This document shows, piece after piece, positions 19,991 through 48,179 of a DNA stretch of 64,000 nt; positions within the stretch are counted from its first letter, which is position 1, and the number at the start of each line of letters is the position of its first letter. The position numbers were made by a program, and so were the translations under genes. The stretch comes from Colwellia sp. (lineage in GTDB: Bacteria; Pseudomonadota; Gammaproteobacteria; Enterobacterales; Alteromonadaceae). The DNA is taken from positions 515 to 64,514 of the forward strand of contig NVWU01000019.1 in the NCBI GenBank assembly GCA_002733765.1. Direction: 5' to 3'. Under the pieces are notes generated by a model that saw only the letters and a program-made list of their open reading frames with translations, had not been told where the DNA came from and ran no database searches.

Positions 19991-20917
19991 TTACAACGCA
20001 TTCTCTAACTCAGGTAAAGCTTCAAATAGATCTGCAACGATACCGTAATCAGCAACTTGGAAGATGGGCGCCTCAGGATCTTTGTTGATCGCAACAATAA
20101 CTTTCGAGTCTTTCATACCCGCAAGATGTTGGATTGCACCAGAAATACCTACAGCAATGTATAAATCTGGCGCTACAATTTTTCCTGTTTGGCCTACTTG
20201 CATGTCATTAGGTACAAAGCCAGCGTCTACAGCAGCGCGTGATGCACCAATTGCAGCACCTAACTTGTCAGCAATACCATCTAATAACTTAAAGTTATCG
20301 CCATTTTGCATGCCACGGCCACCTGAAATAACTACGCTTGCTGCGCTTAAGTCTGGGCGTTCTGAAACAGTTAATTCATCACTTACATGGCTTGAAATAC
20401 CAGCATTTATCACATTATCTAGGTTTGTGATGTCTGCAGAGCCATCACAAGCAACGGGATTAAACCCTGTTGAACGAACGGTAATAACTTTTTTATCATC
20501 TAAACTTTGTACTGTTGCAATAGCATTACCTGCATAGATAGGACGCACAAATGTATCGGCACTTTCTACAGCAATAATGTCTGAAATTTGAGCCACATCT
20601 AATAAGGCTGCAACGCGAGGCATAAAGTTTTTTCCTGTCGTTAATGCGGTCGCCATAACAACGCTGTAATCAGCAGCTAATTCAGAGACTAATAAACTGA
20701 CGTTTTCAGCTAGTTGATGCTCATACGCTGTACTGTCTGCAACTACTACCTTTGCAATTCCATTAACTTTCGATGCCTTTTCTGCAACGGCTTGACAGTT
20801 ATGACCCACAACTAAAATAGTGATATCACCACCAATTTTTTGTGCCGCGGCAACTGTTTTTAATGTATCAATTTTTAACACATTATTATCGTGTTCTGCG
20901 TAAACTAAAATACTCAT
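19991..20917 (-). CDS. etfA: electron transfer flavoprotein alpha subunit
   Basis: FAD-carrying subunit of ETF, 308 aa. The C-terminal FAD domain shows SGGRGM (198-203), ASRAAVD (225-231), GQTGK (242-246) and GISGAIQH (257-264). ETF takes electrons from acyl-CoA dehydrogenases and hands them to ETF:quinone oxidoreductase. It overlaps etfB by 4 bases. Both are the last genes of a long minus-strand beta-oxidation operon, so this copy may serve mainly the acyl-CoA dehydrogenases encoded nearby. Confidence 0.96.
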
Positions 20918-21666
20918 GAGATCACCTTTGCTTCATTTTTTAACTTTTCAACTAATTCATCAATTGATTCAACAATGAGACCTGCTTCACGCTCTCTAGG
21001 TGGTGTAACTTTTAACAAGTTGGTACGTGCCGTTAAATCAATACCAAAATCAGCAGCCGATTTTACTTCTAATGGCTTACGCTTAGCTTTCATTATGTTC
21101 GGTAAAGATGCGTAACGGGGTTCATTTAAACGTAAGTCAGTAGTAATAATCGCGGGTAAGTTAAGCGAAATTGTTTGTAAACCACCGTCTACTTCACGTG
21201 TTACGTTAACTTTGCTCTCTTCAACCTTAACTTCAGAGGCGAAAGTACCTTGTGCTAAACCTGTTAATGCTGCAAGCATTTGACCTGTTTGGTTGTTATC
21301 GCTATCGATAGATTGTTTACCTAAGATAACCAATTGAGGTTGCTCTTCTTCAACAACTTTTTGCAGTAATTTAGCAATATTTAACGCGTCTAAGTTTTGG
21401 TCTGTTTCAATTTGTATCGCGCGGTCGGCGCCAAGAGCGAGTGCTGTTCTAAGTTGCTCTTGGCAACTTTTATCACCAATAGAAATAACAATAACTTCAG
21501 TTGCTGTGCCTGCTTCTTTAAGGCGAACAGCTTCTTCTACGGCTATTTCACAAAATGGATTGATTGCCATTTTAACGTTAGCTAAATCAACGTTTGAATT
21601 ATCAGGTTTAACGCGTACTTTGACGTTATAATCAATGACACGTTTGATGGGTACTAGTACTTTCAT
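20914..21666 (-). CDS. etfB: electron transfer flavoprotein beta subunit
   Basis: AMP-binding ETF subunit of 250 aa starting [20 protein letters not shown], with the family region [17 protein letters not shown] and the AMP site in [20 protein letters not shown]. The stretch [20 protein letters not shown] contains the recognition-loop leucine region that docks to acyl-CoA dehydrogenases. The ATGA overlap with etfA ensures equal expression. The gene follows two thioesterase genes on the same strand. Confidence 0.96.
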
Positions 21667-21724
21667 TAGATTTACTACTCCTCTATGGATTATCCGTTAA
21701 GATTTCCGTTGTTAGTTTTTTAAT

Positions 21725-22162: not shown

Positions 22163-22220
22163 AAAAAGTCTCCTCTTTTATGATAATGTGTTAATTGTGT
22201 GACTATACGTTAGAATTGGG

Positions 22221-22619: not shown

Positions 22620-22628
22620 TTTATACTC

Positions 22629-23363
22629 TCACTTTCTGCTTCTTGCGGCTTGAGATTCTTCACTTTGAAGTAACTTATTGAAAATTACTAACTCATTTTT
22701 AATAACATCATTAAGTATTGTATGCTGAGTTGCTTTAAGGAGTTTTTTTGTCGTACGCAAGGCATTTTGAGGTTTGATCGCTAAGGCTTTTGCTTTGGTT
22801 AAGGCAAAATCAAATACTCCAGATTTGTCTATTTTCTGATTGACTATACCGAAATCAATAGCTGTTTCCGTATTAAAAGCATCGCACAGCATTAATATTT
22901 CAGTGGCTTTACGATAACCAGCTAACTGAGGAACAAGCAAGCTTGACCCTCCTTCGGGGCAAACACCTAAATCGACGAAAGGCATTTTAAAATAAGTTTC
23001 TGATGCATAAACAAAATCAAAATGAAGTAACATGGTTACTCCTATACCAATGGCAACGCCAGATACTGCTCCGACGATCGGTTTTGGGTAGTTATGTAGT
23101 TCATATAATAAAATTGATGCAGGTGATACTTTATTAGGATCACGACTATCGAAATCTTTTAGATCATTACCCGCTGAAAACGCATCATTCGTCCCGTGTA
23201 TAAGTACTACTTTAATACTTTCATCGGAAACGCTATCTTTCAGTGCTTCAGCCATAGCATGATACATTAAGTTGTTTAACGCATTTTTTTTCTCTGGACG
23301 ATAAATACCTATATGTAATACACCACTATCCTTATGAATTAATATATTTTCTTGATATTTCAT
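22629..23363 (-). CDS. enoyl-CoA hydratase/isomerase family protein
   Basis: Crotonase-fold protein of 244 aa. The first oxyanion segment is AFSAGNDLKDF at about residues 61-71 and the second is SGVAIGIGVTMLLHFDFVYA. The third motif, LGVCPEGGSS, has one glutamate at the place of the second catalytic acid of hydratases, whereas the first position (after GIG) is not acidic, so it may be an isomerase (ECI/PaaG-like) rather than a hydratase. It is in the same operon as the PimF-like enzyme. It is a weak candidate for the missing cyclohex-1-ene-1-carboxyl-CoA hydratase; similarity to BadK is only at family level. Confidence 0.8.
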   Translation of the reverse strand: MKYQENILIHKDSGVLHIGIYRPEKKNALNNLMYHAMAEALKDSVSDESIKVVLIHGTNDAFSAGNDLKDFDSRDPNKVSPASILLYELHNYPKPIVGAVSGVAIGIGVTMLLHFDFVYASETYFKMPFVDLGVCPEGGSSLLVPQLAGYRKATEILMLCDAFNTETAIDFGIVNQKIDKSGVFDFALTKAKALAIKPQNALRTTKKLLKATQHTILNDVIKNELVIFNKLLQSEESQAARSRK

Positions 23364-23374
23364 ATTTGCTGTAC

Positions 23375-24352
23375 CTATTTATTATTCAGACGGTTTAAAC
23401 GACAGAGAGCCAAATCATATTCTGTTTTAAAGCGTTCAACGATAGTAGATACATCAGTAATATCTGCAATACTGCCTAATCCTTGACCTGCACCCCAAAT
23501 GTCTTTCCAAGCCTTAGGTTTACTACTGCCAGAGGAGCCAAATTTCATTTGATTTTTATTGCCTCCTGCTAAATTATCAGGATCTAAGCCCGCATTAGAA
23601 ATACTCGGCTTGAGATAGTTTCCATTAATGCCAGTAAATAATGAGCTATAAACAATATCTTTCGCACTATGTTCAACTAACATGTTTTTATATTCTTGAT
23701 CAGCATTAGCTTCTTTGGTTGCAATAAAGCGCGTTCCTATATAGGCAAAGTCAGCACCTAAAGCCTGTGCTGACAGTATAGATGCACCATTAGCAATGGA
23801 GCCAGATAACGCAATAGGGCCATCAAAAATTTTTTTTATTTCACTAACTAAAGCAAAAGGACTTAACGTACCCGCATGGCCACCTGCGCCAGCACACACT
23901 AGGACTAAACCATCTACACCAGCTTCTATTGCTTTTTCAGCATGACGAACATTAATAACATCGTGAAAAATAATGCCACCATAAGCATGAATACGTTTGA
24001 CTAATTTAGCATCTAAAGCGCGTAAGCTTGTAATAATGACCGGCACCATATATTCAATACAAGTATTTACATCATCCTCTAAACGGTCATTGCTCTTATG
24101 AACAATTAAATTAACCGCATATGGGGCAACGATCGCGTTAGGGTTATCGACCTGATACTGATCTAACTCAGTTTTGATTGTTGTTAGCCATTCACCAAGT
24201 AATGATTGAGGACGCGCATTTAGTGCCGGAAAAGATCCTACAATACCTGCTTTACATTCTGCGATAACTAACTCTGGTCCCGAAATGATGAACATAGGAG
24301 CACTGATGATAGGTAAATATAATTTATTTTGTAACGTTTTTGGAATTGACAT
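23375..24352 (-). CDS. nitronate monooxygenase-like FMN protein
   Basis: A 325-aa TIM-barrel flavoprotein of the nitropropane dioxygenase/NPD family. It starts with KLYLPIISAPMFIISGPELV, and the phosphate-binding region reads VDGLVLVCAGAGGHAGTLSP and later ALGADFAYIGTRFIAT. Relatives include nitronate monooxygenases, FabK-type enoyl reductases and flavin reductases of uncertain role. Members frequently appear inside fatty-acid or dicarboxylate catabolic operons, as here, where an oxidoreductase role on an acyl-CoA is possible. Specific function unknown. Confidence 0.78.
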   Translation of the reverse strand: MSIPKTLQNKLYLPIISAPMFIISGPELVIAECKAGIVGSFPALNARPQSLLGEWLTTIKTELDQYQVDNPNAIVAPYAVNLIVHKSNDRLEDDVNTCIEYMVPVIITSLRALDAKLVKRIHAYGGIIFHDVINVRHAEKAIEAGVDGLVLVCAGAGGHAGTLSPFALVSEIKKIFDGPIALSGSIANGASILSAQALGADFAYIGTRFIATKEANADQEYKNMLVEHSAKDIVYSSLFTGINGNYLKPSISNAGLDPDNLAGGNKNQMKFGSSGSSKPKAWKDIWGAGQGLGSIADITDVSTIVERFKTEYDLALCRLNRLNNK

Positions 24353-24433: not shown

Positions 24434-26530
24434 TTAGCTGTTGGCCCACTGGCTTAAGGTTTTTTCTTCTGCGACAAGTTGTTTTAATAACTTTGCAGGT
24501 TGCCAAAACGCTTCACCGTAACGGGAGCCAAACTCACAAATGGTTTGATAAACTTTTTCTAAACCAATGGTATCAGCATAAAACATTGGACCCCCTCGGT
24601 AGGCTGGAAATCCATAACCGAATACGTAAACTACGTCAATATCACTAGGGCGTTGTGCAATACCTTCCTCAAGTATTTTAAAACCTTCGTTGATCAAAGC
24701 AAAAGTCAAACGCTCTAAAATAGTAACGTCATCTATTTTTTTGCGTTTAACGCCTTTATTTTTGGCTTGTGCTTTAATCACCTCAAGTACTACAGGGTCA
24801 GCAATACGTTGTCTAGTTTCGGGATCATATTTGTAATAGCCAGCACCAGTTTTCTGACCTAAACGGCCCATCTCATATAAAGCATCCGCAATACAATAGG
24901 TTCTGGCATCACCCTTTTCTTCATCAGTTAAGCCTTCGCGCGCTTTATAGCCAATATCTATTCCCGCTAAATCGGCAACCGCTAATGGCCCCATTGCCAT
25001 CCCAAAGCTTTGCATGACGGTGTCTATATCTTGAGGTGTTGAGCCTTCAAGTAAACATAATTGAGCTTCACGAGCATATTGGCGCAACATGCGGTTACCA
25101 ATAAATCCATAACTAACTCGAGATAAAACAGGGACTTTTTTTATCGTTTTAGCTATGGCCATTGATACCTCTAATACTTTATCGGACGTTTTATCGCAAC
25201 GTATTATTTCAAGTAATTTCATTACATTAGCAGGGCTAAAAAAATGAAGACCAATAACATCTTGAGGTCGAGAAGTTGACTCTGCAATTAAATTTACGTC
25301 TTGATAAGAAGTATTACTCGCTAAAATAGTGCCTTGCTTACACACTTTATCGAGCTTAGCGAATACTTGTTTTTTGATGTCTAGGTTTTCAAAAACTGCT
25401 TCAATAACCAAATCCATTTCAGCTAAATCATTATAATCGGTTGTGCCTGTAATCAGTGCTTGACGTTGAGCAGCAAGCTCAGTAGTCAATTTACCTTTAT
25501 TAACGGTCATCGCGTAATTTTTAGCGATAATATCTTTACCGCGTTGCAATGCTTCATCGTTAATTTCAAGTAAAGTAACGGGGATACCAACATTAACAAA
25601 GTTCATTGCAATGCCACCTCCCATTGTACCGCCACCAATAATACCCACTCGTTTAATATCTTTTAGCTGAGAGCCTTTTGGTAAACCTTTTATTTTTGAA
25701 GACATTCTTTCGGCAAAAAACATATGACGTAATGAAGCAGACTGTGGTGATTGCATGCACTCTACAAATAGCGTTCGTTCAATTTTAATACCTTCATTAA
25801 AAGGTTTGTTCAATGCAGCTTCAATACACTCAACAATACGCTGCGGTGCTTCTTGTCCGCGAAACCGTTTACTTAATTTTTCTCTAAATTCAACGAAAAA
25901 TTCAGCTGAAGAGTTTTCTTTATCAACGTCTAAATCCCTTACTCTTTTAAGCACCGCACCTTGTGCAATTACTTCTTTGGCAAAATCTAGTGCAGCGGTA
26001 AGTAAATTACCTTCAATCACTTTATCAATTAAACCCATACTTAGCGCTTTAGCGGCCGTAATGGGCGTGCCAGTAGTAATTAAGTCAAGTGCGGCTTTAA
26101 CACCGGCTAACCTTGGTACTCTTTGTGTTCCACCTGCACCAGGTAACAGACCTAGCTTAACTTCAGGTAAGCCAACTTGAGCGGTAGACAATGCACAACG
26201 ATAGTGACAAGCCAGCGCAGTTTCTAATCCTCCACCAAGTGCTGTTCCATGAATCGCGGCAATAATAGGTTTTTGAGATGCTTCGACAAGATCAAGAAGT
26301 TCAGGTAATGAAGGATACACAGGTTGTTTACCAAACTCTGAGATGTCTGCTCCAGCAATAAATGTACGTCCCTCGCAGATCAAAATTAACGCTAAAGATG
26401 CATCATTTTGTGCTTGTGTAACCGCATCCAGAATACCTAAACGTAATGCCTGAGAAAGCGCGTTAACTGGCGGGTGATTTAAACGAATAACACCGATATC
26501 ACCTTCTAATTGATAACTAACAATTGTCAT
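24434..26530 (-). CDS. pimF: bifunctional enoyl-CoA hydratase/3-hydroxyacyl-CoA dehydrogenase, PimF-like
   Basis: Multifunctional beta-oxidation enzyme of 698 aa. The N-terminal crotonase domain has GTALGGGLETAL (E103) and LPEVKLGLLPGAGGTQR (E123), the two hydratase glutamates. The NAD-binding dehydrogenase domain starts at GIIGGGTMGGG (296-306) and carries the catalytic histidine in GLHFFSPANVMKLLE; two C-terminal domains follow. It hydrates an enoyl-CoA and oxidises the 3-hydroxyacyl-CoA. The length and the ligase-thiolase-PimF order match the dicarboxylate (pimeloyl-CoA) operon of Rhodopseudomonas palustris better than FadB/FadJ, which form a complex with FadA/FadI. The Pim name is inference from context. 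Confidence 0.85.
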   Translation of the reverse strand: MTIVSYQLEGDIGVIRLNHPPVNALSQALRLGILDAVTQAQNDASLALILICEGRTFIAGADISEFGKQPVYPSLPELLDLVEASQKPIIAAIHGTALGGGLETALACHYRCALSTAQVGLPEVKLGLLPGAGGTQRVPRLAGVKAALDLITTGTPITAAKALSMGLIDKVIEGNLLTAALDFAKEVIAQGAVLKRVRDLDVDKENSSAEFFVEFREKLSKRFRGQEAPQRIVECIEAALNKPFNEGIKIERTLFVECMQSPQSASLRHMFFAERMSSKIKGLPKGSQLKDIKRVGIIGGGTMGGGIAMNFVNVGIPVTLLEINDEALQRGKDIIAKNYAMTVNKGKLTTELAAQRQALITGTTDYNDLAEMDLVIEAVFENLDIKKQVFAKLDKVCKQGTILASNTSYQDVNLIAESTSRPQDVIGLHFFSPANVMKLLEIIRCDKTSDKVLEVSMAIAKTIKKVPVLSRVSYGFIGNRMLRQYAREAQLCLLEGSTPQDIDTVMQSFGMAMGPLAVADLAGIDIGYKAREGLTDEEKGDARTYCIADALYEMGRLGQKTGAGYYKYDPETRQRIADPVVLEVIKAQAKNKGVKRKKIDDVTILERLTFALINEGFKILEEGIAQRPSDIDVVYVFGYGFPAYRGGPMFYADTIGLEKVYQTICEFGSRYGEAFWQPAKLLKQLVAEEKTLSQWANS

Positions 26531-26555: not shown

Positions 26556-27755
26556 TTAAACACGCTCAATGACTACAGCGATACCTTGACCAATACCAAT
26601 ACACATTGTCGCTAATGCATATCGACCACCCGTTTTTTCTAATTGGCGTAATGCCGTCATCATAATACGAGTACCACTTGCCCCCAAAGGATGACCAATC
26701 GCAATCGCCCCACCATTTTGATTAACACGAGGATCATCAAAAGCAATACCGAGTTGTTTCATGCAACCTAGTGCTTGTACTGCAAATGCTTCATTAAATT
26801 CTAAAACATCCATATCCGCTAGCGTTAAACCCGCCCTTGTTAATGCTTTTTGTGAAGCAGGTACTGGCCCTAAGCCCATAACACGTGGTGCTACACCTGC
26901 AATGGCACCGGCAATGATTTTACCGCGAGGTTTAATACCCGATTTTTCACCCACTTCTTTACTACCAATAATCATTGCAGAAGCGCCGTCGTTAATGCCT
27001 GAAGCATTACCCGCGGTAACTACGCCATCAAATAATGGTCGTAATTTACCTAGTGCTGCTGTTGTTGAAGATGGACGTGGATGTTCATCAGTTGATATTG
27101 AAAGTGCTGGCTTCTTACGACCTTGTGAAACATCAATTGGAATGATCTCATCGTTAAAATATCCAGCTACTTTCGCCGCTTCATATTTAGTTTGAGAGGC
27201 CGCCGCAAATGCATCACATTCTTCTCTGCTAATATTTAAAATACTCGCAATATTGTCTGCCGTTTCAGGCATTGAATGACCGCCATACTTTTTAATGATT
27301 TCTGGGTTAGTAAAGCGAGCACCCATTGTTGTATCAAACATTTCTTGCTGTCTAGTAAAAGCTGAGCTTGCTTTAGCTAAAACAAAAGGAGCGCGACTCA
27401 TCGATTCAACGCCACAAGCAACAAATAATTCCCCTTCATTTGTTTTTACACACCTAGCTGCATCCAATGCTGCAGCTAGGCTTGAACCACACAAACGGTT
27501 AATAGTTAAACCGCCGCTCTCTATCGGCAAGCCAGCTAATAGTCCGGCAAAGCGAGCTACATTTCGGCTATCTTCACCCGCCTGATTCGCATTACCGGCA
27601 ATCACATCTTCATAAAGACTTAAATCAAAATCGTTGCGTTGTACTAAGGTTTTTATAAGGTGCGCAAGCATATCATCTGGTCGAACAGAAGATAAAACGC
27701 CTCCATGACGTCCAAATGCGGTTCTTGCGGCATCATATATATATGCATCTTTCAT
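26556..27755 (-). CDS. pimB: acetyl-CoA acyltransferase (thiolase), PimB/PcaF-like
   Basis: Thiolase of 399 aa that cleaves a 3-ketoacyl-CoA with CoA. The nucleophile C89 lies in INRLCGSSLAAAL, the catalytic histidine in NEAFAVQALG and in GGAIAIGHPLGASGTR, and the second cysteine in ATMCIGIGQG. Wording such as EDSRNVARFAGLLAGLP is typical of the PcaF/PaaJ/PimB group that handles dicarboxyl-CoA substrates. It is flanked within 30 bases by the CoA-ligase and PimF-like genes. Predicted step: 3-oxopimeloyl-CoA to glutaryl-CoA plus acetyl-CoA. Confidence 0.88.
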   Translation of the reverse strand: MKDAYIYDAARTAFGRHGGVLSSVRPDDMLAHLIKTLVQRNDFDLSLYEDVIAGNANQAGEDSRNVARFAGLLAGLPIESGGLTINRLCGSSLAAALDAARCVKTNEGELFVACGVESMSRAPFVLAKASSAFTRQQEMFDTTMGARFTNPEIIKKYGGHSMPETADNIASILNISREECDAFAAASQTKYEAAKVAGYFNDEIIPIDVSQGRKKPALSISTDEHPRPSSTTAALGKLRPLFDGVVTAGNASGINDGASAMIIGSKEVGEKSGIKPRGKIIAGAIAGVAPRVMGLGPVPASQKALTRAGLTLADMDVLEFNEAFAVQALGCMKQLGIAFDDPRVNQNGGAIAIGHPLGASGTRIMMTALRQLEKTGGRYALATMCIGIGQGIAVVIERV

Positions 27756-27763: not shown

Positions 27764-29611
27764 TTATGAATTTATATAATTAACTAAGACTGGAAAGGCG
27801 ATTAACAATTTAGCGACTATCTCTTTGTCTTGTGTATTTGATAATTGAATGTTTACAACCTGGCCTTTTTCTGGATCAAATACTGATTCAACTTGGGCCG
27901 TGATTTTATTTGTTTCAAACAAAGTATTAATACTGAATTCTGTTGCATTATTACGTAATAATGGTTTGAAAATTTTCCCTACAGCAGTTAACGGTATGCT
28001 ATCGAGTATTTCGATACGTTTAGGAATTGCAGCTCTTTCGCTAATATGCTCTTGGCAATGTAAAAGTAATTCAGATGAAGTAGTTTTTTTCTTATTTTCT
28101 ACAACTACATAGGCAACAGGTACCTCTCCTGAATGAGCGTCAGGTTGACCTATAGCAACCGATTGGATGACACCAGGATGCGCCATTAAGACATCTTCAA
28201 TTATCTGTGGATCAATATTATGACCTCCACGGATAATCAAATCTTTTGCTCTACCAGTCAGCTGTATATGTCCTAACTCATTAATGACACCTAAATCACC
28301 AGTATTGAACCACTCATTTTCGATCCATGCGCCATCATTATCACTTTCATTCAAATAACCTTGAAAGATATTAGGACCTTTTACCAAAATAATGCCAGGT
28401 TCATTAGTTGCACAAATACGGCTAATTTTATTATCAATGAGTTCAACAGCAATCACGCGGGAATATGGTATGCCATTGCCAACGGCAACCCCGTTAACAT
28501 CATAGTCAGGCAATACTCTAGCAATTAAACAGGATGACTCTGTCATGCCATAACCATTGGTCACATTGCAATTAAACTTTTGCTGAAAAGATAATTTTAA
28601 TTCAATAGGTAAGGGCGCTGAACCGCAGGCAGCATGCTCAAAACAGGTAATATCAATTTTTTCATCCTGTTGTTGCAATAAAACAGACATGATGGTGGGT
28701 ACGGTAGGGAACCAGCACACTTGATATTTATTAACAAAATACCACCAATTCTTCACCGTATTTTGGCTTCTAAATCCTTCGGGGGTCATAATAACAACCG
28801 TACGACCTGCACAAAATATTGCTAAGCTCGCGGCAATAACACCAAAGACATGGAATAATGGTAATGCATTTAAAACGGCGGATTTACCATGAGATGTATT
28901 AAATTCTGCATAAATTTGAACAACAAAACTAATATTGTCATGAGATATTTTTGCAATTTTTGGGTGGCCTGTTGTTCCTCCTGTATGGAAGTACATCGCA
29001 ATATCATCACCCTTAGGTTGTAAATATTGCGCCAATCTCTCACTAGGTTGGGTAGATATAGCACTATTAAAATTAGTAATGGTTAATTTTTTATTACTGA
29101 TATCACCATTGGTATTATCGAGTACAAGTATATGTTCAAGTGATGGAACGCGTTCAATAATCTCATGAACTTTTTTACCTAATTCAGTTGTATCATCAAG
29201 CGAAACAGTTACTAATAGCTTTGTTTTTACCTCATTTAAAATTTCAACAATATGATCAACTTGTAAAAGGTAGTTAATAGGGTTGGCAATTCCCACAACT
29301 TGGGAAGCCCACATACTAAGGTGGGTTTCAGTCAAATTGGGAAGTAAAATAGATACAACATCTGTACGTTTAACGCCTAGTGTTTTATAAAGGTTTGCTG
29401 TTTGATTAATTTTCTTGGCTAAAATAGAAAAAGTTAGTTTTTTGGCTACCTCATCTCTAGAAGCCGTTAAGTGCTCAGCTATGGCTATATCCCCAGAATA
29501 TTCCTCTGCAGCATGGCAAATTACATCGTATGTTGTTCTACAATGATATCGGTCTTGGTAGCCTATTTCTTCTAAATTAGCGATTAACTCTAATTCTGTT
29601 GGTTTGGACAT
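27764..29611 (-). CDS. acyl-CoA synthetase (AMP-forming), PimA-like
   Basis: Adenylate-forming CoA ligase of 615 aa. The phosphate loop is HTGGTTGHPK at residues 209-218, with ALPLFHVFG, NGYGMTES, NTGDLG and GRAKDLIIRGGHNI in the usual order; the C-terminal catalytic lysine is in TAVGKIFKP. It is longer than many ligases, with about 50 extra residues after that lysine. It is the first gene of a minus-strand operon (ligase, thiolase, PimF-like, NPD, crotonase, two thioesterases, EtfB, EtfA). A dicarboxylate or alicyclic acid is a reasonable guess for the substrate, but the sequence also fits a general medium-chain ligase. Confidence 0.85.
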   Translation of the reverse strand: MSKPTELELIANLEEIGYQDRYHCRTTYDVICHAAEEYSGDIAIAEHLTASRDEVAKKLTFSILAKKINQTANLYKTLGVKRTDVVSILLPNLTETHLSMWASQVVGIANPINYLLQVDHIVEILNEVKTKLLVTVSLDDTTELGKKVHEIIERVPSLEHILVLDNTNGDISNKKLTITNFNSAISTQPSERLAQYLQPKGDDIAMYFHTGGTTGHPKIAKISHDNISFVVQIYAEFNTSHGKSAVLNALPLFHVFGVIAASLAIFCAGRTVVIMTPEGFRSQNTVKNWWYFVNKYQVCWFPTVPTIMSVLLQQQDEKIDITCFEHAACGSAPLPIELKLSFQQKFNCNVTNGYGMTESSCLIARVLPDYDVNGVAVGNGIPYSRVIAVELIDNKISRICATNEPGIILVKGPNIFQGYLNESDNDGAWIENEWFNTGDLGVINELGHIQLTGRAKDLIIRGGHNIDPQIIEDVLMAHPGVIQSVAIGQPDAHSGEVPVAYVVVENKKKTTSSELLLHCQEHISERAAIPKRIEILDSIPLTAVGKIFKPLLRNNATEFSINTLFETNKITAQVESVFDPEKGQVVNIQLSNTQDKEIVAKLLIAFPVLVNYINS

Positions 29612-30618: not shown

Positions 30619-31770
30619 ATGATTCGAGATCAAGAAATGTTGAATCAATTTCTCGACAGTATTTCAAGATTTGTTAGAGAGCGTTTAGTCCCTGCGGAAA
30701 ATGAAGTGGCAGAAAATGATGCCATTCCAGATGATATTGTTCAAGAGATGAAAGATATGGGCTTGTTCGGTATGACTATTCCAGAAGAGTATGATGGCTT
30801 AGGTCTTACTATGGAAGAAGAAGCGCTTGTCGCCATTGAATTAGGTAGGACATCACCTGCCTTTCGTTCACTGATTGGCACTAACAATGGTATTGGCTCT
30901 GCAGCTATTGTATTTGACGGGACAGAAAAACAAAAACAAACCTACTTACCTAAATATGCAACAGGTGAACTTATCGGTTCTTTTTGTTTAACAGAGCCCG
31001 ATGTTGGCTCTGATGCCTCAGCAGTTAAAACAACTGCGGTAAGAAAAGGCGATGAATATATAATTAATGGCACCAAACGTTTTATTACTAATGCACCAAG
31101 AGCTGGGACATTTACGGTAATGGCTCGCACTGACCCATCTATTAAAGGAGCTAAGGGGATCTCTGCTTTTATAGTAGATGCGTCTACCCCAGGAATTATA
31201 CTTGGACCTAAAGATAAAAAAATGGGTCAACAAGGCTCTCATACCTGTGATGTGATTTTTGATAATTGTCATGTCCCCGCTGAAAACATAATTGGTGGTG
31301 TTGAAGGGAAAGGTTTTATAACGTCAATGAAAGTATTAGATAGAGGTCGTCTTCATATTTCAGCGTTAAGTGTTGGTATTGCCGAACGTTTAATTGATGA
31401 CGCTTTAAGATACGCTACAGAAAGAACCCAATTTGGTAAACCTATTGCTGAACACCAAATGATTCAAGTCATGCTAGCTGATAGTAAGGCTGAAGCTTAT
31501 GCTGCTAAATGTATGGTTTTAGATGCTGCAAGACAAAAAGATTTAGGCAAAAAAATAAGTACAGAAGCATCTTGTTGTAAATTATTTGCAACCGAAATGG
31601 TGGGTCGAGTTGCTGATAAAGCCGTACAAATTCATGGCGGCGCTGGCTACATTTCAGAATACGCAGTAGAGAGGCTTTATCGTGACGTCAGATTATTTAG
31701 ATTATACGAAGGCACGACACAGATACAGCAAATGATAATAGCCAGAAATATGATTAGAGATATTAAATAA
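30619..31770 (+). CDS. acyl-CoA dehydrogenase, canonical homotetramer type
   Basis: FAD-dependent acyl-CoA dehydrogenase of 383 aa. The family signatures are CLTEPDVGSDASAVKTTA near residue 118, RTQFGKPIAEHQMIQ, and VQIHGGAGYISEYAVERLYR; the catalytic base is E364 in LYEGTTQIQQ. The AAGGAT site lies just before the ATG. It introduces the 2,3 double bond and passes electrons to ETF. It is the first of three consecutive acyl-CoA dehydrogenase genes. A decayed sibling lies at 42010-42440, very similar in the LEEIGG...MEEEALxxxELGR and MVGRVADxxVQ segments. Substrate chain unknown. Confidence 0.9.
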   Translation: MIRDQEMLNQFLDSISRFVRERLVPAENEVAENDAIPDDIVQEMKDMGLFGMTIPEEYDGLGLTMEEEALVAIELGRTSPAFRSLIGTNNGIGSAAIVFDGTEKQKQTYLPKYATGELIGSFCLTEPDVGSDASAVKTTAVRKGDEYIINGTKRFITNAPRAGTFTVMARTDPSIKGAKGISAFIVDASTPGIILGPKDKKMGQQGSHTCDVIFDNCHVPAENIIGGVEGKGFITSMKVLDRGRLHISALSVGIAERLIDDALRYATERTQFGKPIAEHQMIQVMLADSKAEAYAAKCMVLDAARQKDLGKKISTEASCCKLFATEMVGRVADKAVQIHGGAGYISEYAVERLYRDVRLFRLYEGTTQIQQMIIARNMIRDIK

Positions 31771-38131: not shown

Positions 38132-39313
38132 ATGAGCCAAAAACTAACCGCCTTTAATTGGCAAGATCCAATGTTTCTTGACAGTCAACTAACCGAAGAA
38201 GAGCGTATGATACGTGATACCGCTTATGATTATTGTCAGGAAAAGCTTTTACCACGTGTTCTTGAAGCAAATAGACATGAACACTTTGACCGTGAAATAA
38301 TGAGTGAATTAGGTGAGCTAGGTCTTTTGGGTGCTACCTTACCTACTCAATATGGTGGCAGCGAAGTAAATTATGTAAGTTATGGTTTGATCGCTCGTGA
38401 AGTAGAGCGTGTAGATAGTGGATATCGTAGTGCCATGAGTGTGCAATCATCTCTTGTTATGCATCCTATCTATGCTTACGGTACTGAAGAACAAAGAATG
38501 AAGTATTTACCTAAACTTGCTTCGGGTGAATGGGTTGGCTGTTTTGGTTTGACTGAGCCTAATTCAGGCAGTGATCCTGCGTCTATGACTTCTCATGCGA
38601 CCAAAGTGGATGGTGGTTATTGTTTAACTGGTAGTAAAATGTGGATCACTAATTCACCAATAGCCGATGTTTTTGTTGTTTGGGCAAAGCTTGATCGTAA
38701 AATTCGTGGTTTTGTGCTTGAAAAAGGGATGGAAGGCTTATCTGCACCGAAAATTGAAGGCAAGTTTTCTTTACGTGCCTCAATAACTGGTGAAATTGTT
38801 ATGGATAATGTTTTTGTGCCAGAAGAAAATATGTTTCCTGAAATTAGAGGGTTAGCAGGACCTTTTGGTTGTTTAAATAAAGCGCGTTTTGGTATTGCTT
38901 GGGGCGCGTTAGGAGCGGCAGAATTTTGTTTTAATTCTGCCCGAAATTATACATTGGATCGCCAACAATTTGGTCGCCCTTTGGCTTCGAATCAGTTAAT
39001 TCAAAAGAAACTTGCAGATATGCAAACTGAGATAAGTATTGGCTTACAAGGCTGCTTACAAATGGGCCGTTTAATGGATGTTAATCAATGTCCGGTTGAG
39101 TTGATTTCTCTATTGAAGCGTAATAATTGTGGTAAATCACTTGATATTGCACGAGTTTCTCGTGACATGCATGGTGGAAATGGTATCAGTGATGAGTTTG
39201 GCGTTATTCGTCATGTAATGAATCTTGAAGCAGTCAATACCTACGAAGGTACTCATGATGTTCATGCTCTAATTTTAGGTCGTGCCATCACTGGTTATCA
39301 GGCTTTTTGCTAA
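38132..39313 (+). CDS. gcdH: glutaryl-CoA dehydrogenase
   Basis: FAD enzyme of 393 aa that oxidises and decarboxylates glutaryl-CoA to crotonyl-CoA and CO2. The stretch [20 protein letters not shown] at residues 98-117 contains R99 and S103, equivalent by spacing to the substrate-carboxylate ligands of the human enzyme. The catalytic base is E372 in [11 protein letters not shown], and the C-terminal [16 protein letters not shown] is diagnostic. This is one of the safest calls in the window. It supplies the exit of odd-chain dicarboxylate oxidation (pimeloyl-CoA to glutaryl-CoA) to central beta-oxidation. Confidence 0.96.
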
Positions 39314-42009: not shown

Positions 42010-42440
42010 ATGGCATTGATTTTCAAATACGAGAACAACTAATCATACCCGCTGAGGAAAAAGCTGCCGAGAGTGACTTAATACCGGAATAAATTTTGAA
42101 AGAAATGAAGGAGCTTGGTTTTTTTGATTGCAATTCTAGAGGAAATTGGCGGTATTGGGCTAAATATGGAAGAGGAAGCATTGCTTATGTTTGAACTGGG
42201 TCGCGCCGCTCCAGCTTTTAGATCTTTAATAGCTACAAAGGTAGGTATTGTTTACATCTAAAATGGTTGGCCGTGTGGCCGATAGAAATGTCCAAGTTTA
42301 TGGTGGAAATGGCTATGTTAGGGAGTATTGTGCCGAACAGTTATTTAGAGATGCTCGCCTATTTATAATTTATAAAAAAATGACGCAATTCAACAAATCA
42401 TTATTGCTAAAATATGGTGAAAGACGCCAGAGAAAAAATT
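42010..42440 (+). pseudogene. acyl-CoA dehydrogenase with large internal deletion
   Basis: Pieces in different frames match the acyl-CoA dehydrogenase at 30619: FQIREQLIIPAEEKAAESDL with a stop after IPE, then ILEEIGGIGLNMEEEALLMF with ELGRAAPAFRSLIAT, then a jump of about 220 residues to KMVGRVADRNVQVYGGNGYV and QLFRDARLFIIYKKMTQF. The catalytic segment YEGT has become IYKKMT. At least two frameshifts, one stop and one deletion. It lies between the broken oxidoreductase and badR. Confidence 0.85.
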
Positions 42441-42443
42441 GGT

Positions 42444-42938
42444 TTATGATTTATCGTCGGGGTCTAGAGCGCTAAGGTTTTCTAGTAATTTATCTAAATA
42501 ATGAATAACGTGAATTTTGTCTGTAGTTGAAAAACCCTCTAGTGCAGTATCATAATATGAGCCAATATTTTGGCTCATATCGGTTTGCCATAATTTTTGT
42601 CCCGCTTCAGTTAACCTTATCAATCGCCGTCTACTATCTTCGCTTGAAACAGTGCGCTCAATTAAATTTCGTGATTCCAATCTAGATAAAAGGCCGGTTA
42701 AATTTTGACGGCTCACCATTAAAAAAGCGGCTAAATCGCTGACTGCAATTCCATTTGATGACTCTACTCTAGTTCTAGATAATGCACCAATGATTGCCCA
42801 TTGTTGAGTGGTGATGTGACTCTGCTCTAAAGCGCGGGTACCCGTTTTATGCATCATGTTGGCGCTTTGATAAAGTCGAAAAAAAAGCCTGTTATCCAGA
42901 CTAGCGGCAAGGGTAGAACGATCTTTTTTTTTATTCAT
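42444..42938 (-). CDS. badR: MarR family regulator, BadR-like
   Basis: Winged-helix repressor of 164 aa. The DNA-binding part reads ITTQQWAIIGALSR at about residues 41-54, SDLAAFLMVSRQNLTGLLSR near 68-87 and the wing SSEDSRRRLIRLTEAGQKLW. MarR proteins act as dimers released by small carboxylates or CoA esters. It is divergent from badH-badI, the same arrangement I recall for badR in Rhodopseudomonas palustris, where BadR controls cyclohexanecarboxylate genes. A perfect inverted repeat overlaps the badH -35 box in the shared intergenic region. Regulator identity is strong by context, moderate by sequence. Confidence 0.8.
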   Translation of the reverse strand: MNKKKDRSTLAASLDNRLFFRLYQSANMMHKTGTRALEQSHITTQQWAIIGALSRTRVESSNGIAVSDLAAFLMVSRQNLTGLLSRLESRNLIERTVSSEDSRRRLIRLTEAGQKLWQTDMSQNIGSYYDTALEGFSTTDKIHVIHYLDKLLENLSALDPDDKS

Positions 42939-43021
42939 TTTTTATTGTTCATTTTTTATTATTTATTATTTATTTTCTCATTTTATATCCAGATAGGAGG
43001 AGGGTCAACTTTTTTTGATAT

Positions 43022-43068
43022 TAATTATATGTAAATAGCTTGACATATAATTATGATTTTGATTATAT
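43022..43068 (+). promoter_or_regulatory. badH promoter with overlapping inverted-repeat operator
   Basis: Perfect 11-bp inverted repeat TAATTATATGT (43022-43032) and ACATATAATTA (43043-43053). A consensus -35 box TTGACA (43040-43045) overlaps the right arm, and a -10-like TTATAT follows at 43063-43068 with 17-base spacing. The layout is that of a MarR repressor site blocking RNA polymerase; BadR is the obvious candidate. Confidence 0.7.
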
Positions 43069-43187
43069 GATTTTGCACACTTGATATTTCTTACACTGTC
43101 TAATTAAATCGATGAAGTAGATAAATCAAAGGTACATAGCATTATTTTTTTTGCGATGGTCAAATAATTAAATTAAGGAGAATGTTT

Positions 43188-43955
43188 GTGAAAAGTTTAA
43201 AAGGTAAATTAGTTGTCGTAACTGGTGGTGGTGGTGGTATTGGATCAGCCACTTGTATAAGGTTTGCAAATGCAGGTGCTCGAGTTGCTGTTCTTGATTT
43301 AAATGAAGATTCAGCAAAAAAAGTTGTTATTAAAATAAAAGACAATGGCGGGGATGCAATTGCTGTTGGTGTTGACTTAACAGACTATGAATTAACCGTA
43401 AAAGTAGTTAATGATATTGAAGCAAATTTTGGTTCCATTGATATTTTAGTGAATAATATGGGTTGGGATGTCTTTACACCATTCTTAAAGAGTGGACCTG
43501 ATTTTTGGACTAAAATTATCGACATTAATTTACGTGGTGTATTGAATGTAACTCACCCTATTTTAGAGAAAATGGCAGAACGCGGCTGTGGGCGCATTGT
43601 CTCAATTGGCTCAGATGCCGCTCGTGGTGGTTCGTCTGGTGAGTCAGTATATGCCGCTTGTAAAGCGGGTGTTATTGCATTTTCAAAAACAATTGCGCGA
43701 GAACATGCACACCAAGGCATTACTGCAAATGTGGTTTGTCCTGGTGTGACAGAAACGGCAATGTTGGAAAATTTTATGGAAAGTGCTGGTGATAAAGAAA
43801 AATTACGTAAAGCTTTCACACGGGCAGTTCCTATGGGGAGACTCGGCGCGCCAGATGATTTGGCAGGAGCCATTCTATTTTTTGCTAGTGATGATGCATC
43901 ATTCATTACTGGGCAAGTGATATCAGTTTCTGGCGGATTAACAATGCATGGGTAA
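43188..43955 (+). CDS. badH: 2-hydroxycyclohexanecarboxyl-CoA dehydrogenase
   Basis: Classical short-chain dehydrogenase that oxidises 2-hydroxycyclohexane-1-carboxyl-CoA to the 2-keto ester with NAD. Counting from an upstream ATG at 43182, the cofactor loop is TGGGGGIGSATC (14-25), the catalytic residues are S144, Y157 and K161, and NNMGWD lies at 91-96. Phrases SIGSDAARGGSSGESVYAAC and GQVISVSGGLTMHG match what I recall of BadH closely. I prefer the GTG at 43188 because AAGGAG ends only one base before the ATG but seven before the GTG, giving MKSLKGKLVVVTGG. It is first in the badHI pair. Confidence 0.88.
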   Translation: MKSLKGKLVVVTGGGGGIGSATCIRFANAGARVAVLDLNEDSAKKVVIKIKDNGGDAIAVGVDLTDYELTVKVVNDIEANFGSIDILVNNMGWDVFTPFLKSGPDFWTKIIDINLRGVLNVTHPILEKMAERGCGRIVSIGSDAARGGSSGESVYAACKAGVIAFSKTIAREHAHQGITANVVCPGVTETAMLENFMESAGDKEKLRKAFTRAVPMGRLGAPDDLAGAILFFASDDASFITGQVISVSGGLTMHG

Positions 43956-43967
43956 GGGGAAAGTTTA

Positions 43968-44753
43968 ATGGAATATCAAGATATTAACTTCGACATTAAA
44001 GATGGTGTCGCAAACATTCAAATTAATAGGCCTGAAAAATATAATGCCTTTCGGGGGCAAACTTGTGAAGAGCTCATCCATGCATTTAATAAAGCAGGAT
44101 GGGACAAGTCTGTTGGGGTTATTGTTTTTTCAGGAGCGGGAGAAAAGGCTTTCTGTACTGGGGGAGACCAGTCTGCACATGAGGGGCAATATGATGGGCG
44201 AGGCACTATTGGCCTACCGATGGAAGATTTGCACACTATAATCAGAGATGTTCCTAAACCCGTTATTGCTAAAGTACAAGGTTTTGCTATTGGTGGCGGT
44301 AATGTGCTTTGCACCATTTGTGATTTTACAATTGCAGGAGAAAAAGCAACTTTTGGCCAAGTTGGACCTAAAGTTGGCTCAGTAGATCCAGGGTTTGGAA
44401 CTGCATTTTTAGCGCGAGTTGTTGGCGAAAAGAAAGCCAGAGAAATGTGGTATATGTGTCGCCGCTATTCAGCATCTGAGGCTCTTGAAATGGGGTTAGT
44501 AAATAAAGTAGTCCCTAATGAAGAATTAGATGCCGAAGTGAACCAGTGGTGTGTTGAAATTATGGAAAAAAGCCCGACTGCATTGGCCTTAGCTAAGCGT
44601 AGTTTTAACGTAGATACTGAACATCAACGTGGCATTGCTAGTTTAGGAATGCTCGGTTTATCATTGTATTATGATACTGATGAAAGTAAAGAAGGTGGCA
44701 TTGCTTATCAAGAAAAACGCAAGCCTGATTTTAGAAAATTCTATAATAAATAA
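43968..44753 (+). CDS. badI: 2-ketocyclohexanecarboxyl-CoA hydrolase
   Basis: Crotonase-superfamily ring-cleaving hydrolase of 261 aa that opens 2-ketocyclohexane-1-carboxyl-CoA to pimeloyl-CoA. The sequence follows BadI nearly word for word: AFCTGGDQSAHEGQYDGRGT, GFAIGGGNVLCTICDFTIAG, FGQVGPKVGSVDPGFGTAFL. The residues named for BadI catalysis are present: S138, D140 and Y235. MenB, the nearest relative, lacks the BadI-specific tail LYYDTDESKEG. It follows badH by 12 bases. This is the defining enzyme for the alicyclic pathway in the window. Confidence 0.92.
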   Translation: MEYQDINFDIKDGVANIQINRPEKYNAFRGQTCEELIHAFNKAGWDKSVGVIVFSGAGEKAFCTGGDQSAHEGQYDGRGTIGLPMEDLHTIIRDVPKPVIAKVQGFAIGGGNVLCTICDFTIAGEKATFGQVGPKVGSVDPGFGTAFLARVVGEKKAREMWYMCRRYSASEALEMGLVNKVVPNEELDAEVNQWCVEIMEKSPTALALAKRSFNVDTEHQRGIASLGMLGLSLYYDTDESKEGGIAYQEKRKPDFRKFYNK

Positions 44754-44763
44754 TTTAATTTAG

Positions 44764-45310
44764 GTAAACCACCGCCTCTGGCGGTGCGATTCAAAAAGGC
44801 TTTGCCGTTAAGGTGTGCGAATTTGAGAGACTGGCAGAGCCAAGCTCACGTTAAGCATTATTGAAAATATCACATAGTTTTTGTTCCAAAATAGCAGAAA
44901 AGCAATGTACGGCTCTATAAGAAGAGATATAGGTAAAATATTAAGAGAATAATGTAGGCAACAAGGTGTTGAATTAATAGAAGGTTATGCGATGAACGAT
45001 CATATTCCTATGCTATTGATGATCCAGCTTAAATTTAGTGTTTCTAACACTGTTGGTTTTCTTAAAGAGAAATCAGTAATTCGAATATTTAGAGACTACT
45101 TACAAGTAAAGCGGAATTTTATAGAACATCATTTTTGGGCAAGAGGCTACTGTGTTAGTACTGTTGGTTTAGACGAACAAGTAATCCGAGAATATATTAG
45201 AAATCAAGAGAAAGAAGAAAAAGTGACAAGAGCAGATGCAATTGTCAGGAATTTAACTACAGCCACTTCTAAGGACTTTTATCATACCCCAGCTTTGTCG
45301 GTGGTTGCTG
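44764..45310 (+). mobile_element. IS200/IS605-type (IS1004-like) element, dead
   Basis: Starts with a 7-bp hairpin CACCGCC-TCT-GGCGGTG (44768-44784) and contains a decayed TnpA gene; the right end shows CCACTTCT...GTCGGTGGTTG sequence near 45263-45307. It lies between badI and aliB, 30 bases before the aliB start, and so replaces the natural leader of aliB. Confidence 0.65.
44890..45278 (+). pseudogene. tnpA: IS200 TnpA transposase remnant with mutated HUH motif
   Basis: Codons upstream of the open frame read RKAMYGSIRRDIGKILRE, stop, CRQQGVELIEGYAMNDHIPM, the known IS200/IS1004 N-terminal pattern. The metal-binding HUH motif is DHIPMLL: the second histidine is proline (CCT for CAT). WARGYCVSTVGLDEQVIREY with the catalytic tyrosine survives. 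The frame slips near 45223; the alternative frame reads QEQMQLSGI before a stop, the usual end. Stop, missense and frameshift together show it is inactive. Confidence 0.82.
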
Positions 45311-45341
45311 ATTGAAAAATTCGAGTAAGGAAAGAATTAAA

Positions 45342-46499
45342 ATGATAAGTATTTATGAAACTGAAGAAATAACATCTTTAAGAAACATGGCAACTAAATT
45401 TGCTATGGAGAAGCTTGCTCCAGGTTATCAAAGTAGAGAGAAAAGTGCAAAATTTGAACCTGAACTTATACATGAAATGGGATCATTAGGCTTAATTGCA
45501 CCCGAATTACCCGAAAAATTTGGCGGTTTAGGTGTTGGTTCTATATATTCAGGCGTAATTATTGAAGAATTGTCACGCGGTGATTTTAATTTTGGCTATA
45601 TCTCGTTATTGGCTTCTTTAAATGGGCATATACTCGCTACATATGCCCATCCAGATTTGGCAGAAGAATGGTTGCCTAAATTAATTTCTGGAGAAATTAT
45701 GCTGGCGATTGCTTTGACGGAGCCAAAAGGAGGGTCAGATGCGGCTAGTTTAGGGCTGAAGATGGTTCGAGACGGCGATCACTATGTTTTAAATGGAGAA
45801 AAAACTTCAATTTCTGCCGCTGATCAGGCCGCTGCTACGATTGTGTTTGCACGCACAGGCAAACAAGAGGATAAAGCTCGTGGTGTTTCTGCCATTTTAG
45901 TACCTATGAATTTGGAAGGGATTTCAACCACCCGCTTTGACGATCTTGGTCAGCATGCAATAGGTCGAGGTTCAATATTTTTCGATGACGTACGCGTTCC
46001 TGTCAAAAACTTATTGGGTGATGAAAACAAAGGATTTCATCAGGTGATGCAAGGGTTTGATTTCTCGCGTTCATTAATCGGCCTGCAATGTATAGGAATA
46101 GCCCAACAGAGTTTAGATGAGACCTGGCAACATGTCGCGGAACACAAAGCTTTTGGTAAACCATTAGCATCTTTTCAAGGTGTATCTCATCAACTTGCCG
46201 CATTCGATACAAAGATTCAGGCGGCTCGCCTTTTAAGCATGCATGCATTGTGGCTGAAGGATCAGGGCTTAGATCATACTGCTGAAGCGGCTATGACCAA
46301 ATGGTGGCTACCACTTCTTGCTTATGAAACTATACATTGTTGTCTGCTTATGCACGGTCATTACGGGTATTCGAAAGAATTACCATTTGAACAGCGTTTG
46401 CGCGATGTGCTTGGTTTACAAATTGGTGATGGTACGGCAAATATAATGAAAACAATAATTGCAAGGGAACGCGCCGGTCGGGACGTGGTCGGTAATTAA
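45342..46499 (+). CDS. aliB: cyclohexanecarboxyl-CoA dehydrogenase
   Basis: Acyl-CoA dehydrogenase of 385 aa from the ATG preceded by GTAAGGA at ten bases; an upstream TTG at 45312 lies in insertion-sequence DNA and is unlikely. Family motifs are AIALTEPKGGSDAASLGL, RSLIGLQCIGIAQQSLDETW and MHGHYGYSKELPFEQRLRDV. The catalytic base position is D363 in QIGDGTANIM, aspartate where most family members have glutamate. It would desaturate cyclohexanecarboxyl-CoA to cyclohex-1-ene-1-carboxyl-CoA with ETF as acceptor. The call rests on resemblance to AliB and on the badHI-aliBA order. Confidence 0.82.
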   Translation: MISIYETEEITSLRNMATKFAMEKLAPGYQSREKSAKFEPELIHEMGSLGLIAPELPEKFGGLGVGSIYSGVIIEELSRGDFNFGYISLLASLNGHILATYAHPDLAEEWLPKLISGEIMLAIALTEPKGGSDAASLGLKMVRDGDHYVLNGEKTSISAADQAAATIVFARTGKQEDKARGVSAILVPMNLEGISTTRFDDLGQHAIGRGSIFFDDVRVPVKNLLGDENKGFHQVMQGFDFSRSLIGLQCIGIAQQSLDETWQHVAEHKAFGKPLASFQGVSHQLAAFDTKIQAARLLSMHALWLKDQGLDHTAEAAMTKWWLPLLAYETIHCCLLMHGHYGYSKELPFEQRLRDVLGLQIGDGTANIMKTIIARERAGRDVVGN

Positions 46500-46532
46500 A
46501 AAACAAATGTATAGTTTTGGGGAGGAAATGTA

Positions 46533-48179
46533 ATGAAATTTGACGCTATATTGATAGAGCCGCGGATCAAGGAAATGACTGAAAAAGGGTCCTGGCAGGA
46601 CAAAACAGTCAACGACTATTTTGATATTTGTTTGAAACAGTGTCCAGATAAATGTGCGGTGACATCAATTATTATCGAGACTGGCGAGCGGACGGATTTA
46701 ACTTATCGTCAATTGGATATTTTAGCCAATCAAATTGCTACTGGTCTATCCAAACTTGGTATTAACAGAAATGACGTTGTTTCGTGTCAATTACCAAATT
46801 GTTGGCAATTTATTGCTACCTATTTGGGTTGTTCAAGAATTGGTGCCGTATTTAACCCCGTTATGCATATTTTTCGCGAGCGTGAGCTGTCTTTTATGCT
46901 CAAACATGGCGAAGTTAAGTTGTTTATTGTGCCAAAAATATTTCGTGGTTTTGATCATCAAGCCATGGCAATTGGGATGCAGTCTGAGCTTCCAGATTTA
47001 AAACATATAGTTGTTTTGGGTGGTGAGGATGAAGTGTCATTTGATACATTATTACTTGATCCGAATTTCATAGACGAAGCAATACAAAATAATATTATTT
47101 TAAAAGAAGTACACTCGCCAAATGAAGTTTGTCAACTTATCTATACATCAGGCACCACGGGTGAACCCAAAGGTGTCATGCATACCGCGAATACGATGTA
47201 TTCTAATCTTGTCCCATATGCAGCAAGGCTAGATCTAACCCATAATGATGTGGTGCTTATGGCTTCTCCTATGGCGCATCAAACCGGCTTTATGTATGGG
47301 TTGTTAATGCCAATTCAATTAGCTGCAAGTGTTGTCTTATTGGATAGTTGGGACAAGAAAATTGCTGCAACTATTATTGATGAATTAGGTTGTAGTTTCA
47401 CCATGGCATCAACACCTTTCTTGATGGATTTGGCCGATGCCGTTGAAGAATATCAAACAGATTGTAAATCTTTGAAAACATTTCTTTGTGCTGGAGCAGC
47501 CATACCAGGTGCGATAGTTGAACGTGCCAGACTAGTGTTAAGTGCAAAAATTGTCTCTGCTTGGGGAATGACAGAAAATGGTGCTGTGACTCTCATTAAT
47601 TTGGATGATCCAGATGAATATGCTGTGAATTCAGATGGATATCCATTGGCTGGTATGGAAATTCAAATTCGTGATCCCAATGGAAATGTAGTGCCCACAA
47701 ATCATGAGGGTGAATTATTTGTTCGAGGGTGTTCAAATTTTGGCGGATATTTAAAGCGCGCACACCTGAATAATCAAGATGCGGATGGTTGGTTTGATAC
47801 GGGTGATATCGCAAAAAAAAATAATAAAGAATATATTCGAATTTGCGGTCGTTCTAAAGATATTATTATCCGCGGAGCCGAAAATATACCGGTTGTTGAA
47901 ATTGAAAATATACTATTTAAACATCCAAATATTTTGACCCTTGCCATTGTTGGTTATCCAGACGAGCGATTGGGAGAGCGGGCATGTGCCTTTGTGGTTG
48001 TCAAACCAGGTAAGAGCTTTGGGTTTGATGATATGATCAGTTTTCTCGATAAGCATCATGTTATTAAACAATATTTTCCCGAACGGTTAGAATTGAAAGA
48101 CAATTTACCATCAACAGCTTCAGGGAAGGTACAAAAATTTTTGTTGCGTAATATTTTGCTTGAAAAAATGGAAAATTAA
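46533..48179 (+). CDS. aliA: cyclohexanecarboxylate-CoA ligase
   Basis: Adenylate-forming CoA ligase of 548 aa. The P-loop is YTSGTTGEPKG at residues 204-214, the adenylate motif SAWGMTENG, then WFDTGDIA, GRSKDIIIRGAENIPVVEIE, and the C-terminal catalytic lysine K532 in TASGKVQK. The N-terminal wording LIEPRIKEMTEKGSWQDKTV and FRERELSFMLKHGEVKLFIV matches my recollection of AliA. It activates cyclohexanecarboxylate with ATP and CoA, the entry step of the pathway. It follows aliB by 33 bases after a GGGGAGG site and is probably cotranscribed. Confidence 0.85.
   Translation: MKFDAILIEPRIKEMTEKGSWQDKTVNDYFDICLKQCPDKCAVTSIIIETGERTDLTYRQLDILANQIATGLSKLGINRNDVVSCQLPNCWQFIATYLGCSRIGAVFNPVMHIFRERELSFMLKHGEVKLFIVPKIFRGFDHQAMAIGMQSELPDLKHIVVLGGEDEVSFDTLLLDPNFIDEAIQNNIILKEVHSPNEVCQLIYTSGTTGEPKGVMHTANTMYSNLVPYAARLDLTHNDVVLMASPMAHQTGFMYGLLMPIQLAASVVLLDSWDKKIAATIIDELGCSFTMASTPFLMDLADAVEEYQTDCKSLKTFLCAGAAIPGAIVERARLVLSAKIVSAWGMTENGAVTLINLDDPDEYAVNSDGYPLAGMEIQIRDPNGNVVPTNHEGELFVRGCSNFGGYLKRAHLNNQDADGWFDTGDIAKKNNKEYIRICGRSKDIIIRGAENIPVVEIENILFKHPNILTLAIVGYPDERLGERACAFVVVKPGKSFGFDDMISFLDKHHVIKQYFPERLELKDNLPSTASGKVQKFLLRNILLEKMEN

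Follow-up and report, generated by a model that had tools for sequence, protein, structure and literature searches.

The window, a stretch of 64,000 nucleotides from a Colwellia sp. (contig NVWU01000019.1, positions 515 to 64,514), belongs to a contig of 93,689 bases (C35) in a draft genome of 4.05 Mb, 98.9% complete and 0.5% contaminated, and at 42444-48179 it carries five genes which, judged from their sequences, are a real bad-ali cluster, that is, one for the conversion of cyclohexanecarboxylate (CHC) to pimeloyl-CoA. The original prediction had placed here a block of badI, badH, aliB-like and aliA-like genes with a divergent MarR gene, and this block stands: these genes, like all the others on which the findings rest, are intact open reading frames (ORFs) in the ORF list, at or near the positions predicted. 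Together with the features between and around them, they are the following.

42018..42412, plus strand: decayed acyl-CoA dehydrogenase (ACAD) upstream of badR, with frame changes and a large internal loss
42444..42938, minus strand: badR, MarR-type regulator (Pfam MarR), divergent from badH
43030..43045, plus strand: putative BadR operator TGTAAATAGCTTGACA, which holds TTGACA, a possible badH -35 box
43182..43955, plus strand: badH, 2-hydroxycyclohexanecarboxyl-CoA dehydrogenase (best family TIGR03206)
43968..44753, plus strand: badI, 2-ketocyclohexanecarboxyl-CoA hydrolase (TIGR03210)
44754..45315, plus strand: additional DNA separating badI from aliB; contains a truncated IS200-like (Y1) transposase ORF at 44992-45315
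45342..46499, plus strand: aliB, cyclohexanecarboxyl-CoA dehydrogenase (TIGR03207)
46533..48179, plus strand: aliA, cyclohexanecarboxylate-CoA ligase (TIGR03208)
48179..48247, plus strand: likely remnant of the start of a short-chain dehydrogenase/reductase (SDR) gene, such as relatives have next after aliA

Identity was judged by the curated NCBIfam equivalog cut-offs, with Pfam, PRK models and matches to the PDB for the other genes. AliA passes the cut-off of its family (798.7 bits against 792.3), as do AliB (592.6 against 575.35, the ORF being scored from the TTG at 45312 given in the ORF list; by eye the ATG at 45342 is the likelier start) and BadI (482.2 against 467.6), which scores lower with the MenB models. 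BadI is 88% identical to its homologue in Thalassobius vesicularis, AliB 82% to the Thalassobius counterpart, and BadR 68-70% to the MarR proteins that occupy the same place in the Salipiger and Thalassobius clusters. In two trees with hand-picked rows (the 25 generic SDRs being a random draw from 42), BadI is split from five annotated MenB with support 100/100, and BadH falls with 18 other BadH, apart from the 25 SDRs, with support 99/96; thus the phylogeny that had been proposed as a check sets both proteins with the Bad enzymes. The residues S138, D140 and Y235, which had been brought forward for BadI, are indeed all present, but they carry no evidence for that identity: since five of five MenB share them and the BadI homologue of locus L038 has F in place of Y235, they cannot identify BadI or tell it from MenB.

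The arrangement is likewise shared with relatives. A scan with the window BadI gave 340 relatives, of which the best 80, picked by closeness, form the set of named loci; in 54 of these 80, marR on the opposite strand is followed by badH, badI, aliB and aliA. The top 20 rows of the scan are 82-88% identical to the window BadI, with Thalassobius vesicularis first, and all bear alphaproteobacterial names save two labelled only Proteobacteria. Five gene trees were built by a quick method, with SH-aLRT (approximate likelihood-ratio) support only, from the rows that passed identity and length filters, the window included (badI 96, badH 73, aliB 65, aliA 64, marR 69), and in each of them the window gene is nested among Rhodobacterales and Hyphomicrobiales, the placements of aliB, aliA, badH and marR being those in the listed parts of the trees; the exact sister varies among the five.

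A BadI over the cut-off occurs in one of the 147 sampled genomes of the family, which is the window's own, and in none of the four other sampled genomes of the host genus, while in a sample of the class (369 genomes, own included) matches at 1e-100 were found in 12 and exceed the cut-off in 3. Plasmid records with BadI homologues number 69 at E 1e-60, MenB included, the best two being from Rhodobacterales, and one bad cluster is carried by a conjugative plasmid of Marinobacter salarius. Because the five genes branch within the Rhodobacterales/Hyphomicrobiales and only one of the 147 family genomes has a BadI over the cut-off, 42444-48179 is very probably a bad-ali operon of the Rhodobacterales/Stappiaceae type that arrived by horizontal transfer, apparently from the alphaproteobacteria. 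A chimeric assembly as the origin of the foreign genes was set aside, because their GC content at third codon positions (GC3) is that of the host. As to the class of this host, a YgiQ protein with 69% identity to its Aeromonas counterpart, and 66-68% to those of several enterics, is consistent with a gammaproteobacterium; no 16S rRNA was found on searching the genome. One of the related loci (L125), on a 46 kb plasmid of Paracoccus sp. MC1862, holds badI together with two MarR genes and a short ORF of the AMP-binding type, with no annotated badH or aliB, and looks like a broken bad cluster.

The spacer between badR and badH appears to have kept a putative operator that is conserved among relatives. 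Its 19 nucleotides at 43029-43047 are identical to the spacer of the Salipiger plasmid, the longest such run in 500 shuffles being 10. A search of the spacer for the published operator motif CAAN4TTG in its exact form found no copy; a form with one mismatch, common to Salipiger, lies at 43033-43042, and the exact motif is present in 30 of 66 spacers. For the longer palindrome TGTCAATATATTGACA, a score of 11/16 or more is reached in 66 of 66 spacers and in 58 of 1320 shuffles, which preserve base composition only, and these scores are partly circular because the motif was composed from some of the same spacers.

On both sides of the operon, and within it, there are scars that had gone unmentioned in the original prediction, as had the absence of badK. 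The decayed ACAD has lost its middle part, and what is left matches the Salipiger ACAD in three different frames (65% over 55 residues, 68% over 44 and 44% over 50). It occupies the position where many alphaproteobacteria have an intact ACAD: one that points at badR from upstream is found in 11 of the 80 named loci, as well as in Salipiger. Several relatives have an intact SDR gene directly 3′ of aliA, of which the window apparently keeps only the first codons. The IS200-type fragment between badI and aliB matches only positions 49-121 of the 121 of Pfam Y1_Tnp and is single copy in the genome, its sole match being itself; the gap that contains it measures about 590-601 bases, compared with a median of 73.5 (range 21 to 4797) in the 54 loci of the same order, and a terminator scan of this gap listed none on the operon strand. 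An intact ISAs1 transposase gene lies at 40343-41479 (minus strand), 81% identical to copies on plasmids of Moellerella and Pseudoalteromonas.

Upstream of these genes lies a second group, the pim-like block, with its neighbours.

19991..21666, minus strand: etfB (20914-21666) and etfA (19991-20917), under the cut-offs of all models listed
22629..23363, minus strand: crotonase-family protein (PRK06023 195.3 bits, below the cut-off of 282)
23375..24352, minus strand: nitronate monooxygenase/FabK-like flavoprotein (model matches)
24434..26530, minus strand: FadJ/PimF-like hydratase-dehydrogenase (model matches)
26556..27755, minus strand: 3-oxoadipyl-CoA-type thiolase (PRK08131 625.1 bits, above 622)
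27764..29611, minus strand: acyl-CoA ligase, part of the pim-like operon (632.6 bits to the PRK07529 subfamily, against a cut-off of 632)
30619..31770, plus strand: acdX, acyl-CoA dehydrogenase, with 67% identity to the ACAD that lies upstream of badR in Salipiger
31797..32996, plus strand: PimC-like acyl-CoA dehydrogenase, large subunit (best family TIGR03204)
33017..34138, plus strand: PimD-like acyl-CoA dehydrogenase, small subunit (best family TIGR03203)
34597..35631, minus strand: DcaP-like outer membrane porin (PF19577 44 bits, cut-off 27)
38132..39313, plus strand: gcdH, glutaryl-CoA dehydrogenase

The genes for the ligase, thiolase, FadJ/PimF-like enzyme, FabK-like protein, crotonase, thioesterases and EtfBA face acdX and the PimC-like and PimD-like genes. 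The porin and EtfBA had been foreseen and are in place, as is the glutaryl-CoA dehydrogenase, which scores 630.8 bits to the solved 3gnc and, on comparison with solved enzymes, holds the segments GYRSAMSVQ and NTYEGTHD, which we take to bear its active-site Arg and Glu. The two dehydrogenase subunits had been named as PimC/PimD-like, and each does have that family as its best, but both fall below the cut-off (468 bits against 623.85 and 378 against 652.7). The Salipiger cluster has a downstream ACAD with 72% identity to GcdH, and its EtfBA are 63% (EtfB) and 57% (EtfA) identical to those of the window. AcdX is a candidate pimeloyl-CoA dehydrogenase, and it may have replaced the decayed ACAD copy upstream of badR.

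The joining of this block to the bad-ali genes in one system is the part of the original prediction that needs qualification, for the genes are all there but the block also occurs in relatives that lack BadI. Three other genomes of the family, from two further genera (G002, G069 and G130), carry close copies, with PimC 86-93%, acdX 93-95% and the ligase 78-83% identical, and in G002 acdX-pimCD has the genes for the ligase, thiolase and PimF beside it; none of the three has a BadI over the cut-off, and the pim-like block is therefore independent of bad-ali. In favour of a link, adjoining pimC and pimD homologues lie near badI in 3 of the 80 loci (L075, L104 and L108), and the Salipiger plasmid unites bad-ali with FadJ, thiolase, a GcdH-like ACAD and EtfBA of its own. 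Thus, what had been seen as a system looks, on the distribution of its genes, like a foreign bad-ali cassette beside a family-resident pim-like block.

Other genes accompany this block. At 36480-37901 (minus strand) lies a hydrophobic protein of 473 residues, by eye a membrane protein, with no Pfam or PDB match, whose homologues of 59-62% identity are near acdX-pimCD in G130 and G002, and which is possibly a carrier for the block. Beside the block are also a tripartite ATP-independent periplasmic (TRAP) transporter, DctPQM, at 14511-17465 (plus strand) and an IclR regulator at 17856-18656 (minus strand); on comparison, this transporter is not close to that of the Salipiger cluster (DctP 25%, DctM 39%). 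Immediately to the left of the block there is a fragment of an IS1595-type zinc-ribbon transposase at 19004-19237 (plus strand).

If we accept these identities, AliA would convert cyclohexanecarboxylate to cyclohexanecarboxyl-CoA, which AliB would take to the 1-ene; a hydratase encoded elsewhere would add water, BadH would oxidise the resulting alcohol and BadI would open the ring hydrolytically to give pimeloyl-CoA, in a route that would need oxygen at no step. We infer, besides these activities, that BadR represses badH-aliA from the operator in the spacer, from which a CoA-ester of the pathway would probably release it. Pimeloyl-CoA could then pass to glutaryl-CoA by beta-oxidation, for which the PimF-like enzyme and the thiolase would act together with a dehydrogenase, either AcdX or the PimCD-like one, and GcdH would carry glutaryl-CoA to crotonyl-CoA. 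The genome also contains two P450 matches, a possible source of ring acids.

A tentative reading, conceivable rather than probable, is that of a pathway caught in mid-assembly: an alphaproteobacterial bad-ali cassette would have been set beside the resident pim-like block, its own ACAD and SDR genes would have decayed since acdX and related enzymes sufficed, and the regulator with its operator would have been kept in an AT-rich host. Several observations weigh against the main account, that of an acquired operon serving the route just outlined. No badK was found between badR and the end of aliA, either in the ORF list or by model searches, and the missing step, going by gene content, is the hydration of cyclohex-1-ene-carboxyl-CoA. 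The protein of the host genome closest to the hydratase of the Salipiger cluster is 47% identical to it and passes the PaaF cut-off; according to Sanz and Diaz (PMC9795900), most Burkholderiales clusters lack badK, and in most cases of its absence a badK-like gene lies elsewhere in the genome. At L143 (G000:C20:8000-27000) of the host genome, crotonase, dehydrogenase and thiolase genes stand in succession, among them a PaaF that exceeds its cut-off; they probably encode a phenylacetate pathway. BadH scores 367.8 bits, under the cut-off of 431.2, yet TIGR03206 is its best family; because the BadH of the annotated, intact cluster on the Salipiger abyssi plasmid misses it likewise (382.3), the shortfall is probably a matter of the cut-off. 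Compared with their Salipiger counterparts, the FadJ (41%) and thiolase (53%) of the window show no close similarity. The SDR remnant has 18 of its 25 best hits directly behind aliA and 7 elsewhere, and its best E value, 2.5e-4, is a low score. Since badI and aliB stand about 590 bases apart, with a truncated transposase in between, the expression of aliBA is only presumed; a consensus promoter scan listed none at the TTGACA before badH, where the -10 box is putative. The decay of its flanking genes may mean that the operon, too, is being lost. GC3 is 0.23-0.31 in the operon genes and 0.24-0.39 in 17 other genes of the window, and overall GC is 64-67% in three alphaproteobacterial loci (L044, L049 and L124), so the host-like GC3 implies that the transfer either happened long ago or passed through an AT-rich intermediary. 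Finally, the locus set favours the nearest kin because it was selected by closeness to the window BadI.

Alternative explanations are that the operon is a decaying relic, or that it serves another substrate. In the former, the route would no longer work as a whole after the transfer and the insertion of IS elements, as the decayed ACAD upstream, the likely SDR remnant downstream, the truncated IS200 gene inside the operon, the nearby ISAs1 gene and the lack of badK could suggest; however, all five genes are intact and of full length, and both the active-site residues of BadI and the operator-like site in the spacer are kept, which makes such a relic improbable. Somewhat less unlikely, though still doubtful, is that the substrate would be another ring acid, such as a substituted cyclohexanecarboxylate or a terpene-derived acid. 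The score of AliA, no more than 6 bits above its cut-off, would accommodate this, and monoterpene degradation has been put forward as the role of a badKHI cluster that lacks aliAB (PMC9795900); here, in contrast, aliA and aliB are both present and match the curated CHC families, and the order and the regulator are those of CHC clusters.

That BadI should be a MenB and BadH a generic SDR, with no alicyclic pathway at all, is hardly credible. The three residues common to all five annotated MenB and the shortfall of BadH would be compatible with it, but the two trees separate both proteins from those families, and BadI passes its own cut-off with lower scores in the MenB models.

The cluster is a good further instance of a known pathway and not a new system. 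The suggestion that it could be an unreported aerobic system does not hold, because aerobic growth through bad-ali, a wide spread that includes Marinobacter, and the frequent lack of badK are already in print (PMC9795900): there, a badHI mutant of Aromatoleum sp. CIB shows that bad-ali supports aerobic growth on CHC, and clusters are recorded in Marinobacter, Pseudomonas, Cupriavidus, Rhodococcus and others, with many aerobes included. Among openly licensed PubMed Central literature, no title was found on bad-ali genes in Alteromonadales or Colwellia. What the window adds is the placing of bad-ali in a family where the 146 other sampled genomes have no BadI over the cut-off, which suggests a transfer from alphaproteobacteria with the regulator and the operator-like site retained, and a concrete candidate for the breakdown of a model naphthenic acid.

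As for known systems, the pimFABCDE operon of R. palustris presumably holds a ligase, a thiolase, a FadJ-like enzyme and a pair of large and small dehydrogenase subunits, all of which the pim-like block shares, though it differs from that operon in arrangement and in having PimC and PimD under their cut-offs. The Salipiger abyssi plasmid pPABY2 resembles the window in badH-badI-aliB-aliA with a divergent MarR gene and in homologous ACADs, FadJ, thiolase and EtfBA, but there they form a single continuous stretch, whose flanking ACAD and SDR genes are still intact and which has an enoyl-CoA hydratase next to it; the plasmid also joins a TRAP transporter to its bad-ali block. With the bad-ali clusters of R. 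palustris and Aromatoleum sp. CIB (PMC9795900), the window shares badR, badH, badI, aliB, aliA and, in so far as its genes alone can indicate, an oxygen-independent chemistry. The order of R. palustris, to which the original prediction had likened the block, is badH badI aliB aliA badK with a divergent badR (PMC9795900), and the window matches it from badR to aliA, badK being absent; and compared with both known clusters, the window has extra DNA between badI and aliB, an operator-like site one base off CAAN4TTG, and an AT-rich, apparently gammaproteobacterial genome as its setting.

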